From the NCBI RefSeq assembly GCF_903642205.1, contig NZ_CAHJWH010000018.1:1-33113 (forward strand): a stretch of DNA of 33,113 bases, written 5' to 3'. How positions within the stretch are numbered: the first letter of the stretch is position 1; each line of letters opens with the position of its first letter. The notes under the pieces are model-generated. The model saw only the letters and a program-made list of their open reading frames with translations. It had not been told where the DNA came from and did not search any database. Below, piece after piece: positions 1-9,380 of this stretch. The DNA is from Caulobacter sp. S45 (lineage in GTDB: Bacteria > Pseudomonadota > Alphaproteobacteria > Caulobacterales > Caulobacteraceae). The translations under genes were made by a program, and so were the position numbers.

Positions 1-36
1 GCGCCGCGGGACGTTTTGAGCGCGCAGGAGGACATC

Positions 37-1581
37 ATGGCGGAGCAACGGTCAGTCATCGTGGGCAGCGAGCGGACCCCGCCCACAGGCGTGGACACGG
101 GGGAAGTCGCCGCGGAAGCGGTCGCGCAGGTGAGCGTCTATCTCAAGCCGCCGACTGCGCTTCACCCTTCGAGGGACCAGAGCTTCCGCACGCGGACGGA
201 GCTCAGAACCGAGCGCCAGGCGAGCCTTGCGGACGCGATGGCGCGCCTGCAGGCCTTCGCCAGGCGCGAGGGGCTGAGCGTGGTGGAGACCGATGCGGGC
301 CGCCGCCTGGTCCGGCTCGAAAGCACGCTGGGTGCGCTCCAGGCCGCCTTCGGGACGCAGCTCCGCCAGTACCGGCACGCAGGCCGGGCCTTCCGGGCGC
401 GCTCGGGGGCCCTGACCGCCCCCTCCGACATCTCGGCCATGGTCGAAGCCGTCCTCGGCCTGGACCAGCGCCCGATCGCCACGCCCAAGTCCAGGCGGCT
501 CGCCAACCCGAGCGTCGATGCAGGCTTCCTGCCGAACCAGGTCGCCAGGCTGTACGGCTTCCCCTCCCCGTCCGGTGCGGGATCGGGCCAGTGCATCGGC
601 GTCATCGAGCTCGGCGGCGGCTTCAACGCCAGCGACACGGCGGCCGCGTTCGCCGCCATGTCGCTGGCGCCGCCCCAGGTGACCGCCGTACCGGTGTCAG
701 GCGGGGCGAACACGCCGGGCAAGGACACCGACGCCGACGGCGAGGTGGCCCTGGACATCCAGGTGGCGGGCGCAGGCGCGCCGGGCGCGCACCTGGCGGT
801 CTATTTCGCCGCCAACACGGACCAGGGCTTCGTCGACGCCATCAGCCAGGCCGCACATGACGAGGCCAACGCGCCGAGCGTGCTTTCCATCAGCTGGGGC
901 TCGGCCGAGAGCGGCTGGACCCAGCAGGCGATCACCGCCATGGGCTCCGCCCTCCAGGACGCCGCCGACCTGGGCGTCACCGTCCTCGCCGCCTCAGGCG
1001 ACGGGCTGGCCACCGATGGCGTGGACGACGGCAAGGCGCACGTGGATTTCCCGGCCTCCAGTCCGCTCGTCCTGGGGTGCGGAGGCACGCACCTTACAGC
1101 GTCCAGCACCGAGATCAGCGGCGAGACGGTGTGGAACAGCGACGGCGGAGGAACAGGCGGCGGGATCAGCGACCTCTTCGACATCCCCGCCTACCAGGCC
1201 CCATTATCGCTGCCAGCCTCGGTGAACGGCCAGCGCAAGGGTCGCGGCGTTCCCGACGTCGCGGCCAACGCCGATCCGGACAGCGGCTACCGCGTGGTGG
1301 TCGACGGGCAGGCCCAGGTGATCGGGGGCACCAGCGCGGCGGCGCCGCTCTGGGCCGGGCTGTTCGCCCTGATCAACGCGGGCGCCGGCCGCCCGTCGGG
1401 CCAGCCCCACGCAGTGCTCTACGCCCATGCCGACGCGTTCCGCGACATTGTCTTGGGTGACAACAGGTCCGGTAGCGTCGGCTATGCGGCGGCAAAGGGC
1501 TGGGACGCCTGCACCGGGCTTGGATCGCCCAGGGCGGCCGAAGTGGCGGCGCTTTTCGCCTCGGGGAAGGCCCCCGAGTAA
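37..1581 (+). CDS. Sedolisin (S53) family serine-carboxyl peptidase, kumamolisin type
   Basis: Acid-type endopeptidase of family S53 with a Ser-Glu-Asp catalytic triad. Of the 514 residues, roughly 25-165 match the pro-kumamolisin activation domain and about 170-510 the peptidase domain. Visible catalytic residues are Glu236 and Asp240 in GEVALDIQV, the oxyanion Asp322 in AASGDG and the nucleophile Ser433 in GGTSAAAP. The calcium site is suggested by FRDI (Asp470) and by GWDACTGLGSP with Asp490. The start is the ATG at 37 because AGGAGG lies 5 bases upstream; an in-frame TTG at 16 is less likely. The first 25 residues show no hydrophobic signal peptide, so how the enzyme is exported, if it is, is unclear. 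It converges on the radical SAM gene with a 25-base gap. The family call is firm; the substrate is unknown. Confidence 0.93.
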   Translation: MAEQRSVIVGSERTPPTGVDTGEVAAEAVAQVSVYLKPPTALHPSRDQSFRTRTELRTERQASLADAMARLQAFARREGLSVVETDAGRRLVRLESTLGALQAAFGTQLRQYRHAGRAFRARSGALTAPSDISAMVEAVLGLDQRPIATPKSRRLANPSVDAGFLPNQVARLYGFPSPSGAGSGQCIGVIELGGGFNASDTAAAFAAMSLAPPQVTAVPVSGGANTPGKDTDADGEVALDIQVAGAGAPGAHLAVYFAANTDQGFVDAISQAAHDEANAPSVLSISWGSAESGWTQQAITAMGSALQDAADLGVTVLAASGDGLATDGVDDGKAHVDFPASSPLVLGCGGTHLTASSTEISGETVWNSDGGGTGGGISDLFDIPAYQAPLSLPASVNGQRKGRGVPDVAANADPDSGYRVVVDGQAQVIGGTSAAAPLWAGLFALINAGAGRPSGQPHAVLYAHADAFRDIVLGDNRSGSVGYAAAKGWDACTGLGSPRAAEVAALFASGKAPE

Positions 1582-6566: not shown

Positions 6567-7598
6567 TCAGGCGCCCTGCACCTGTGTCATCTTGAAGATG
6601 CCCTGGGCGTTGGAACTGTCGAAGCGCAGATCGATACGCCCGGCTTCCGCCTCTACATCCCGGGTGATGAACTCGTAGAAGGAGCCTGGCGCACTCATCC
6701 GCACCTCACCGCCACTGTCGTCGAGGAAGCTGCGCTCCACCGGATCGGCGCGGAAAGCGGTCTGGCGCACGCGGCCCGAAGCGGAGATCTCGACCGCGGG
6801 CTTCATCGGGCGGCCGAGCGCACGCTGAGCCTGGGCCAGAGCGTCCACGTCCGAAACCCGGTCCGTGGCGTGGTTGAAGGCGTTGCCCTCAGTGGCGATC
6901 CAGGCCGCCTCCGCCGACTCGCCCAGCAGGGTGCGGTAGTCGGCGAGCCGCGGGACCGCATGCCGGCGCCCAAAGACCGACGCCAGGACCGACAGCAGCC
7001 GGATGGCTGCGGCCATTTCCAGCTCGCCCTTGGCGCGAAGCTGGCCTAAGTCGGCGAGGCTGACCGGATCAAGCGGATCGCTGGAACTATCGAAGACCGC
7101 ATGGGCGGCGGCCTGGAAGGGCGCGCTGAAGCGGTCCACATGCAACTCGCTCAGGAAGAACTGCGGCACGTCCTCCGGAAAGTCCTCCTGGGCGTAGGCG
7201 CGGCCCGTCATCCCCAGCCTGTCCAGCGGGTAGACGCCAGCCAGTGCGTAGCCAAGCGGCTCCAGGACACGGGTGAAGGCCGCTTCACCCGGTGGCAGAG
7301 CGCCCGTCGGCCCCTCTTTGAATCGAATGGTGCGCAACGCGCCGTGATCGAACACGACACCCGCACCGTCTGCCCGCCGATCCGCCACATAGGCCGCGGC
7401 GGTCGGCGCCCGGGCGAGCAGGTCGTGGAACAGCAGGATGTTGAGCGCCATGGCGGCCACAGCCCGAGAGACCCGCCCATCGGCCCCGGACGGGTTAAGC
7501 AAAGCCGGCGACATCCGCAGGGCCTCGAGCGTGTCGCGGGCGGCGGAGTGGCCGAGGATCGTCTCGACCAGGCGATGCAATTGCGGCGGCTCACCCAT
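6567..7598 (-). CDS. hglS: 2-oxoadipate dioxygenase/decarboxylase (HglS, DUF1338 family)
   Basis: Fe(II) enzyme of the DUF1338 family. In Pseudomonas, HglS converts 2-oxoadipate to D-2-hydroxyglutarate with loss of CO2, a late step of D-lysine catabolism. The three metal ligands of the family are visible: His85 in FDHGALRTIR, His243 in EGNAFNHATDRV and Glu309 in SFYEF. Arg89 lies four residues after the first His, as does the substrate-binding Arg of HglS. The C-terminal signature FDSSNAQGIFKMTQ is also present. The length is 343 residues from the ATG at 7598, which has GGAG 7 bases upstream; a TTG two codons earlier is possible. No other lysine-pathway gene lies beside it, so its substrate here is inferred from the family alone. 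Confidence 0.87.
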   Translation of the reverse strand: MGEPPQLHRLVETILGHSAARDTLEALRMSPALLNPSGADGRVSRAVAAMALNILLFHDLLARAPTAAAYVADRRADGAGVVFDHGALRTIRFKEGPTGALPPGEAAFTRVLEPLGYALAGVYPLDRLGMTGRAYAQEDFPEDVPQFFLSELHVDRFSAPFQAAAHAVFDSSSDPLDPVSLADLGQLRAKGELEMAAAIRLLSVLASVFGRRHAVPRLADYRTLLGESAEAAWIATEGNAFNHATDRVSDVDALAQAQRALGRPMKPAVEISASGRVRQTAFRADPVERSFLDDSGGEVRMSAPGSFYEFITRDVEAEAGRIDLRFDSSNAQGIFKMTQVQGA

Positions 7599-7657
7599 GC
7601 TCAAGCTCCAGAAGCGTAGCTGCCCCTCACCCTCACGCGGAGGTCAGCCGTAACGCC

Positions 7658-8659
7658 TCAGTAGCGGTAAGGCCGGTGATGGCGATAGTACCAGACATGG
7701 TAGGGATATGGACGATAGCTCCACCGGCCGCCGACGTAGAGCCAGGGATTGTAATCCACAGGTGCAGCGTAGGCGTAGCCTCCACCGTAGGTGAAGCCCG
7801 GCGCATCCCCGCGCAGCACGTAGCCGGGCGGACACCCGGGGCTTGTGCCGCCTGGCTGACTGGAGGCGACCGCTCCGCCCAGCAACGCCCCACCCGCAGC
7901 GCCGGCGAGCGCTCCGGCGCCACGGCTATGGCGACCGGCCAGCCCTGCGCCGGCGAAGGCTCCCAGCGCCCCGCCGATGAGCGCGCCGCCTGCGACGTTG
8001 CCGCCGGACTTCACGCAGTTGTCCGTGGCCCACTGCTCAGCCGCCTGAGCATATTGCTGGTCGGCCTGAGGCGAGCCGCCTGCATCCGGGCCGTTTCGAT
8101 CGTATCCTGGCGGTGGCGGAACCGACGATGCTCCGCCATAGCCCGGCCCTTGCGGATAGCCGTTGTCTGAAGGCGGCGGGTAGCCTTGCTGGCCATAACC
8201 TGGCTGCGCATAGCCGCCCTGCCCATAACCGGATTGATCATAGCCCGACTGGCCGCCGTAGCTTGACTGCCCAGAGCCCTGTTGGCCGTAACCCGGCTGG
8301 CCGTAACCTTGCTGGCCATAGCTCTCAGGCTGACCATAACCCTGTTGCCCGTAACCACCTTGGGGTGGCTGTCCGTAGCCATCCCGCGGAGGTGGCGGTG
8401 CAGATGTGTAGCCGCCCTGCGAAGGATCTTGGCCGTAGCCCGGACCGCCATAGCCTGGCTGCCCGCTAGGATCAGGTTGGCCGTAACCCGATTGGCGATA
8501 GCCTGACTGGTCATAGCCCTGGTCGCCGCCATAGGGCTGGCCATAGGCCTGCGCACCGACATCCTGGGCCGAAGCGAAGGAAGCGGCCAGAGGCGAGACG
8601 CTCAGCCCCAACGCCGCCAGCATCAGGCTCGATCGGGACAGTATCGCGGTCGAGATCAT
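7658..8659 (-). CDS. Secreted Tyr/Gly/Gln-rich low-complexity protein with glycine zipper
   Basis: A protein of 333 residues in three parts. Residues 1-31 form a signal peptide ending SFASA before QDV. Residues 33-190 are low complexity, built from loose repeats such as GYGQ, SYGQQ and QPGYGQ, with 23 tyrosines, no lysine and only three arginines. Residues 218-265 form a glycine-zipper segment ([19 protein letters not shown], then [16 protein letters not shown]) of the kind seen in outer-membrane 17 kDa-antigen-like proteins. The tail (residues 308-333) is rich in Tyr, His and Arg and ends RPYRY. The start at 8659 has GGAGGA about 7 bases upstream. The gene is divergent from the Ig-like gene, with 49 bases between them. 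The function is unknown; the composition suggests self-association or a cell-envelope matrix role, which is inference only. Confidence 0.85.
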
Positions 8660-8708
8660 CGGCGTATCCTCCGCCGCTCGCCTGAGCAGCCATCTTCCAG
8701 TACAACAA

Positions 8709-9380
8709 ATGAAGTCTGAACCCGCCCTGACCGTTCCGTTCATCGTCCGCCGCCAGACGGCCGGCCATGGTCGAGCGCGGTGTTTTCACCTCCCAGGCCC
8801 TGGCTTGTCAGCTTTGGCGGCGAGTTGGCTGGGCATGACTCTCGGCGCGTCCGCCGCGATGGGAAAGCCGTTGGCCGCCCATCCGAAAGGAGGCGCCCTG
8901 GACACCGAGACCTCGGTGGTTACGGTCACGGCAAGCCGCGTCGTCCCCAAGGTGCAGAGCACCTTCCCTGCCTCCGGCGCCAAGGTCTCGCCTGGACTGC
9001 TCGTGCTGCGGGTGACCTACGACACGCGCATGCGGCCCGAGGGCTGGTCCTACGCGCAGGAGGCCGGCGAGCAATATCCAGACTGCGCAAAAGCTCCACG
9101 CCTGCTGGACGACAAGCGCAGCTTCGTGCTCATCTGCCGCACCCTTCCGGGCAAGCGGTACGCTGTCTGGTTCAACCGGCCGCCCTTGAACGACTTCACC
9201 AGCTTCGGGCGCCGAGCGGCGAAACCCTTCGAGCTGAAGTTCGTCACCAGCGAAGACGAACCGGTGCGCACCCTCACCGAGGCCATGAGGGCCGACCCGG
9301 CCCTGTCCACTCTTGGAAATCCCGTGGAGCCGGACGGTCTGGCCGCCTACGGTCAGGACGCGCCACCTGGAGAGCCGTAG
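8709..9380 (+). CDS. Putative exported protein with an Ig-like (SbsA/Big_5-type) domain
   Basis: A hypothetical protein of up to 223 residues. A hydrophobic stretch around residues 33-50 ending LGASAAMG resembles a signal peptide, but it lies far from the first ATG and that ATG has no clear ribosome binding site. The true start may be an internal TTG near 8805. Residues 78-182 resemble a bacterial Ig-like fold: [19 protein letters not shown], then a Y-D-T-R-M strand and a closing FELKFVTS. Two cysteines (126 and 143) could form a disulfide. The divergent neighbour is also secreted. I cannot assign a function. Confidence 0.7.

Follow-up and report, generated by a model that had tools for sequence, protein, structure and literature searches.

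The window analysed here, the whole stretch of 33,113 nucleotides of contig NZ_CAHJWH010000018.1 from Caulobacter sp. S45, carries a gene whose coding frame runs on the minus strand from 8659 to 7658, stop included; the first-pass annotation of this segment had given no strand. Frame 1 of the plus strand is interrupted by stops across 7658-8659, and the longest plus-strand ORFs within the interval are 164 and 118 amino acids. The gene and its upstream region comprise the following features.

7658-8659, minus strand: gene for a protein of 333 amino acids plus stop, supported by reading frame, GGAGG and dN/dS
8567-8659, minus strand: predicted Sec signal peptide, residues 1-31, with cleavage after ASA (ASA-Q) as judged by eye
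8090-8566, minus strand: Tyr/Gly/Gln/Pro low-complexity stretch, residues 32-190, from a composition count
8015-8062, minus strand: conserved helix of 16 residues, 200-215, from homologue alignments and helix prediction
7859-7999, minus strand: two-segment glycine zipper, residues 221-267, with an RHSR turn, from Pfam, alignment and hydrophobicity
7661-7849, minus strand: conserved tail, residues 271-333, with stretches of 14 and 18 residues, from alignments
8668-8672, minus strand: Shine-Dalgarno-like GGAGG, found by eye
8716-8732, minus strand: 11-bp direct repeat GGTCAG-GGCGG-GTTCAG, a putative response-regulator box, from box scoring

The GGAGG at 8672-8668 precedes the ATG at 8659 and favours it as the start codon. 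An alternative upstream ATG at 8743 is possible and would place the promoter-like box within the gene. A secretion signal had been claimed before, and residues 1-31 indeed form a predicted Sec signal ending in a site of signal-peptidase-I type. The only cysteines of the protein are Cys-215, which ends the conserved helix, and Cys-276 in the tail; none lies in the signal peptide, which therefore has no lipobox of the SlyB-family kind. The tail (63 residues) contains 13 Tyr, 6 Arg, 3 His, 3 Trp and no Lys, bearing out the Tyr/His/Arg-rich character previously ascribed to it. Of ten stretches compared, only that of G001 shares window neighbours (an aldo-keto reductase, a GGDEF protein, BrkB and a divergent ORF), and the neighbourhood was set aside as a functional clue. 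Immediately downstream (6567-7604, minus strand) lies a gene of the 2-oxoadipate dioxygenase/decarboxylase (HGLS) family, for which the 12-kb stretch compared from the nearest relative gave no match. Near the start of the window (16-1581, plus strand) is a Peptidase_S8 gene with a pro-kumamolisin activation domain.

Residues 33-190 (158 amino acids) comprise 47 Gly, 27 Gln, 24 Pro, 23 Tyr, 14 Ser, 3 Arg and no Lys, with 13 [GS]Y[GS] and 11 [GS]Y[GSA]Q motifs; the 23 tyrosines and the lack of lysine had been counted correctly when a FUS-like domain was proposed. The FUS low-complexity domain has its tyrosines in G/S-Y-G/S-Q units and no lysine, with arginine elsewhere in the chain. The stretch resembles FUS and EWS in these three respects, being Tyr-rich in G/S-Y-G/S-Q repeats and poor in lysine. 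It is unlike them in belonging to a secreted bacterial protein, in having a spacer that is Pro-rich and rather Ser-poor, a composition from which the FUS domain differs, and in a repeat that is not conserved among homologues. The nine GYGQ units are written in eight different DNA spellings, which makes recent slippage unlikely, and DNA-level slippage was rejected as a recent source of the repeats. Tandem Repeats Finder identified short arrays only, of 2.0-4.7 copies.

Homologues were collected from Caulobacteraceae and Sphingomonadaceae. Among 57 non-redundant matches to a core model, 39 were retained as having the tail or, in one case (L081), a core truncated by the contig end. Those left out were 17 zipper proteins that lack the tail, and L025, a paralogue in G002 with a TAG stop in frame within its tail region and no start found. 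Start codons of the 39 members were chosen by hand. A kin search matched 23 of 60 genomes at E 0.001, the own genome included, and many weaker matches covered the zipper only. The core model from an alignment of 11 sequences (A1) matched 46 of 299 family genomes at E 1e-15; 34 matches in 26 genomes, again including the own, reached 1e-37. The Caulobacter sp. S45 genome alone matched in a class-wide draw of 289 genomes (at 1e-25) and in an order-wide draw of 200 genomes searched with a second alignment (A2), both draws being samples from which known Sphingomonadaceae members are missing. Named matches belong to Sphingomonas, Novosphingobium, Phenylobacterium, Caulobacter sp. S45 and further Caulobacteraceae (at least 15 loci, two of them weak), a distribution by which the family appears patchy and narrowly spread within the alphaproteobacteria. 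One record titled 'Actinobacteria bacterium' (L041) has a 65% identical core and is probably a binning error; the other named matches are alphaproteobacterial or titled only Proteobacteria.

The core consensus reads DxxYAxxxxxWAxxxCV, two zipper blocks, CPPGYVxRxGAPxF and YNPWxxxGRWxYRPYPYHxWYY. A1 has 30 invariant columns, including both cysteines and zipper glycines recurring every four residues in two blocks, and A2 (13 sequences) has 26, including Cys-215 and Cys-276 flanking the zipper. No Pfam model matches the tail. What the family conserves is therefore a WAxxxC helix, two GxxxG segments between two cysteines, and a tail rich in aromatic residues, Arg and His; the tyrosine repeats are not part of this unit. 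Compared with the closest relative, G001 (82% identity), the whole gene showed a dN/dS of 0.07, with lower values for the zipper block (0.02) and the tail (0.05); dN was 0.018, 0.073 and 0.158 in zipper, tail and spacer, respectively, with dS of the spacer saturated. The gene is thus real and evolves under purifying selection. Compared with the more distant G002, dN/dS was 0.12 in the spacer, whose alignment is uncertain owing to the repeats, and 0.22 in the zipper, the tail and the gene as a whole; by this measure the spacer would be no less constrained than zipper and tail.

The low-complexity stretch itself varies widely. Across the 39 homologues, with spacer limits set by a simple rule, it is 26-164 residues long (median 66), and only five contain at least five [GS]Y[GS] motifs. 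Nine members retain zipper and tail with 1-3 Tyr in a spacer of 26-41 residues; two paralogues in G002, a genome of the same genus, have 1-2 Tyr in spacers of 34-35 residues. The repeat unit is YGQ here and DQGQY, GYNGQP, NYDRQP or YDDRAPQ elsewhere in the family. Tyr content of the 39 spacers ranges from 3 to 17%, about 11% on average. Lysine is absent from all 2724 residues of the 39 stretches, and from the tails, so that its lack is not special to the Caulobacter sp. S45 protein. Spacer composition is thus loosely maintained in the family and the repeat motif is not; the repeats resemble a disordered spacer, particular to this lineage, that has been added to an envelope protein of SlyB-like kind. 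A FUS-like function was accordingly rejected as a conserved role and as the main reading, since spacer length and motif vary among the homologues; of the earlier FUS-like proposal the Tyr-rich, Lys-free composition stands, but relatives do not keep the repeat. The first-pass annotation had named as grounds for refutation a repeat length that varies freely together with an unconserved zipper or tail. Half of this is borne out: length is free, yet zipper and tail are strongly conserved. An envelope role is supported for these two parts by their conservation. Another glycine-zipper protein carries a YGQ stretch in G001 but none in the own genome (L026 versus L030), a pair that suggests rapid gain or loss of such stretches.

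The glycine zipper proposed behind the Tyr-rich stretch is recognisable, although its Pfam score against PF05433 is below the cut-off (17.7 bits for the whole protein and 19.4 for the core alone, versus 24.2 required). Two hydrophobic segments with regular glycines, of the PF05433 type, lie near residues 222-241 and 247-265, parted by RHSR. Searched singly against the Pfam glycine zippers at E 0.01, 11 of 13 members matched YMGG, 10 Omp and 9 Rick_17kDa. Shuffling the zipper letters equalled the observed GxxxGxxxG count in 3% of cases and the observed GxxxG count in 18%. AlphaFold2 run on A2, from which L044 was missing as it had been missed by the selection pattern, gave a weak model (mean pLDDT 64, pTM 0.57, zipper under 50) with a confident N-terminal helix (model residues 8-25) and a strand pair and C-terminal helix in the tail. 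Foldseek found no match in the PDB with this weak model. Among 11 matches of a PDB profile search, SlyB (7ojf) is the sole outer-membrane protein; its match is weak (E 0.026), covers the zipper only and stands amid glycine-rich matches attributable to chance, Kelch proteins for instance, of which six (counting a SAKe design) have better scores. The protein resembles SlyB (PF05433 Rick_17kDa_Anti type) in having a two-helix glycine-zipper segment followed by a C-terminal part, and differs in having no lipobox, a long Tyr-rich spacer, a cysteine pair around the zipper and a tail for which no relation was detected. Insertion into a membrane and SlyB-like behaviour would be expected from the zipper class. 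According to a citation in PMC13082787, SlyB encapsulates outer-membrane proteins of the TolC-like kind under stress, and slyB is activated by PhoP in enterobacteria (PMC11825808).

The direct repeat upstream of the gene (8732-8716) matches GTTCAS-N5-GTTCAS in 11 of 12 letters, its first half-site, GGTCAG, being the one that deviates. We scored this pattern in the 150 bp before the 39 family genes. At least 10 letters matched in 20 upstream regions and at least 11 in 16; one of the 20 (L081) has its box at -144, which may not be a promoter site. Other spacers between 0 and 12 bp yielded at most 4 and 1, respectively, and the reverse strand none. The remaining 19 members have no good box (fewer than 10 letters), so that control by the box is not family-wide. 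A TA step, outside the letters used for selection, recurs at a constant distance of 12-13 bases past the box, with T in 12 and A in 15 of the 20 family promoters, and with T in 22 and A in 31 of 48 aligned boxes. Its position suggests a -10 element. The Caulobacter sp. S45 gene has TG at this place and TA 2 bp further on.

In eight related genomes the exact box occurs 34 times, the reversed pattern once and a permuted pattern 7 times; read backward, the permuted pattern (39 matches) becomes STTCAG-N5-STTCAG, nearly the box itself, and is no control. The own genome has three copies of GKTCASN5GTTCAS, a number not above that roughly estimated by hand for uniform base composition; the other two copies also precede secreted Gly/Tyr/His-rich proteins (L085, L086). 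We examined the 30 of the 34 exact-box sites that have a locus, leaving out four. A putative signal-peptide ORF, called by a crude script and not by SignalP, starts within 270 bp downstream of 25 of the 30. The corresponding counts are 9 of 30 for the opposite side of the box, 1 of 7 for the permuted sites and 570 of 3933 (14.5%) for random positions. The random rate depends on the pool, being 306 of 1500 in a homologue-rich pool and 570 of 3933 in five longer stretches; the 3933 are 4000 random samples minus those with an ORF of the glycine-zipper family. Proteins with more than 50% G/Y/H/Q/P/W stand behind 13 of 30 boxes (11 of 28 without the glycine-zipper family) versus 11 of 3933 random positions (0.3%). 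These box counts ignore kinship, and some loci are orthologous and hence not all independent. Loci with secreted HGGG/GYG/His-rich proteins directly behind the box are the two of the own genome just named and, in relatives, L108, L110, L111, L116, L122, L125 and L126.

The genes behind exact boxes also include YnbE-like lipoproteins (Pfam PF13617) and others that we take to encode BrkB-like and RcnB-like (L113) proteins. A looser match, for which a longer pattern with at most two mismatches was allowed, precedes a SlyB-like zipper protein (L102, PF05433 above cut-off) and a presumably MlaC-like protein. Box or looser sites before YnbE-like, BrkB-like and MlaC-like genes were noted at L118, L130, L114, L120, L100 and L107, hinting that outer-membrane lipid upkeep may be part of the same box control.

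In G022, G034 and G002, the exact box opens an operon in which the gene for a secreted PepSY-like protein comes ahead of that for a response regulator; in G020 a looser match does so. Operons of a PepSY-like protein and a PmrA/QseB-like regulator bearing the box were seen at L143 (G000:C27), L097, L109, L127, L129, L144 and L145. A search with the regulator protein at 1e-60 matched in 6 of 8 genomes, with none in G001 and G006. All six regulator loci, the own genome included, have a 10-11/12 box that lies 390-660 bp ahead of the regulator, close to where the preceding gene starts, a score of 10/12 being one that can arise by chance in 900 bp (as the second-best match in L145 illustrates). The preceding gene was recognised as PepSY-like by pattern in three of the six (G000, G003, G032), and the own-genome protein passes the Pfam PepSY cut-off (31.4 versus 24 bits). 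That protein itself contains a Gly-rich stretch with some GYG. The G002 regulator is 95% identical to the own-genome regulator; its best NCBIfam scores are to PmrA, QseB, TctD and PhoP, and it falls below the cut-off of all 25 models shown, including the equivalog cut-offs of PmrA (224 of 330 bits) and PhoP (199.6 of 336). G006 has neither regulator match nor box, G001 (85% complete) has the box and no regulator match, and G010 and G032 have the regulator and no good box before their family members. From the association of the box with regulator operons that themselves bear it, we infer that this regulator reads GTTCAS-N5-GTTCAS.

The enterobacterial PhoP box consists of two half-sites with 5-bp spacing. 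Like enterobacterial PhoP/PmrA regulons, the present system would have two half-sites 5 bp apart, self-regulation and a SlyB-like zipper gene (L102), and the Caulobacter sp. S45 gene, with an upstream direct repeat of the same spacing, resembles PhoP-activated slyB. It is unlike these regulons in its GTTCAS half-site, in having the PepSY gene first in the operon and in its many secreted low-complexity targets. CenR, ChvI and the alphaproteobacterial metal regulator UzcR govern regulons in which, as in the proposed one, two-component systems control envelope or exported proteins. They were rejected as regulators here, since the motifs given in the available parts of the publications, TGA-N8-TGA (PMC9275681), TTGC-N3-GCAA (PMC9731502) and CATTAC-N6-TTAA (PMC8963506), respectively, differ from GTTCAS-N5-GTTCAS. 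For FeuP, also considered a candidate, no binding motif was found in the accessible portions of the literature searched. Nor did any of the papers listed by searches that exclude most subscription journals concern the GTTCAS-N5-GTTCAS box. A search combining glycine zipper, tyrosine-rich and bacterial outer membrane found nothing, which does not show absence from print, and among the titles and abstract openings listed for low-complexity secreted proteins none concerned the glycine-zipper/tail family.

Taken as a whole, we give somewhat better than even chances to the explanation that the gene encodes a Sec-exported glycine-zipper envelope protein with a YGQ spacer, under two-component control via GTTCAS-N5-GTTCAS. 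The zipper (residues 221-267) would probably form a hairpin of two helices inserted in a membrane, most likely the outer one, as in SlyB and the 17-kDa antigen, and its GxxxG faces would pack with themselves or with other proteins. Cys-215 and Cys-276 at the zipper ends probably form a disulfide that closes the base of the hairpin. The preceding helix and the Tyr/Trp/Arg/His tail would make up a small cap that could bind LPS phosphate groups, peptidoglycan or partner proteins. The YGQ stretch would serve as a flexible spacer, lengthened in this lineage, that may add weak self-association without being a conserved function. Expression is probably driven by the PmrA/QseB/PhoP-like response regulator of the self-regulated PepSY-regulator operon, presumably upon a stress signal. 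That regulator would read the box before the Caulobacter sp. S45 gene and before other secreted low-complexity genes, and the protein is probably one of a set of secreted, low-complexity proteins of the envelope that are under stress control.

The main features of this explanation can be weighed against simpler or more specialised ones. That the protein is an ordinary surface-antigen-like zipper protein, its stretch a product of neutral drift in a GC-rich genome and its box a coincidence with no special regulation, would fit the abundance of glycine-zipper proteins in the compared genomes (many weaker matches), the YGQ stretch that G001 has and the own genome lacks in a second such protein, and the roughly half of the family without the box. 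The spacing and strand specificity of the box are nevertheless hard to obtain by chance, and so are the eight-genome enrichment, the bias in downstream genes, the fixed TA and the regulator operon; we regard this account as unlikely. Less likely again is a FUS-like condensate or matrix, periplasmic or outside the cell, with the Tyr/Gly/Gln stretch and Arg/Tyr tail as drivers of phase separation or fibre formation and the zipper as an anchor. Condensation is possible for a protein with such a stretch. The abundance of tyrosine in GYGQ-like motifs and lack of lysine point in this direction, as do the family-wide Tyr level and lysine absence despite differing spacer sequences, and the occurrence of the same box before other secreted Gly/Tyr/His-rich proteins; the parts of the papers available report Tyr-Arg cation-pi contacts in FUS (PMC5927716) and phase separation of the curli envelope protein CsgF (PMC10133297). 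The free spacer length and motif argue against it, as do the nine members that keep zipper and tail with hardly any tyrosine, and sequence alone is no demonstration of condensation.

Least probable in our view is a metal-handling envelope protein whose Tyr/His/Gln-rich segments bind metal ions within a metal-responsive regulon. PmrA-type regulators can respond to metals, and the box precedes His-rich secreted proteins (L086, L116, L122, L123) and the putative RcnB-like protein. The tail, however, has only 3 His, no metal motif was seen in the protein, and UzcR, in the available part of PMC8963506, reads a different motif. Beyond the favoured reading of a two-component-controlled zipper protein, a bolder extension, slightly less doubtful to us than the metal account and still improbable, is that a PhoP/PmrA-like system of Caulobacterales and Sphingomonadales controls secreted Tyr/Gly/His/Gln-rich proteins that build a stress-induced envelope layer or condensate. 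The glycine-zipper protein would be its membrane-anchored scaffold, with the Tyr-rich spacer mixing with partners.

Even without condensation, the family is a non-lipoprotein variant of glycine-zipper envelope proteins with a conserved tail unmatched in Pfam. If the box and the regulator are right, they would define a two-component programme in which secreted low-complexity proteins are a main output, an output not met in the available parts of the CenR, ChvI and UzcR regulon papers (PMC9275681, PMC9731502, PMC8963506). On the same condition, condensates or matrices of the Gram-negative envelope would become testable by deleting a single regulator.
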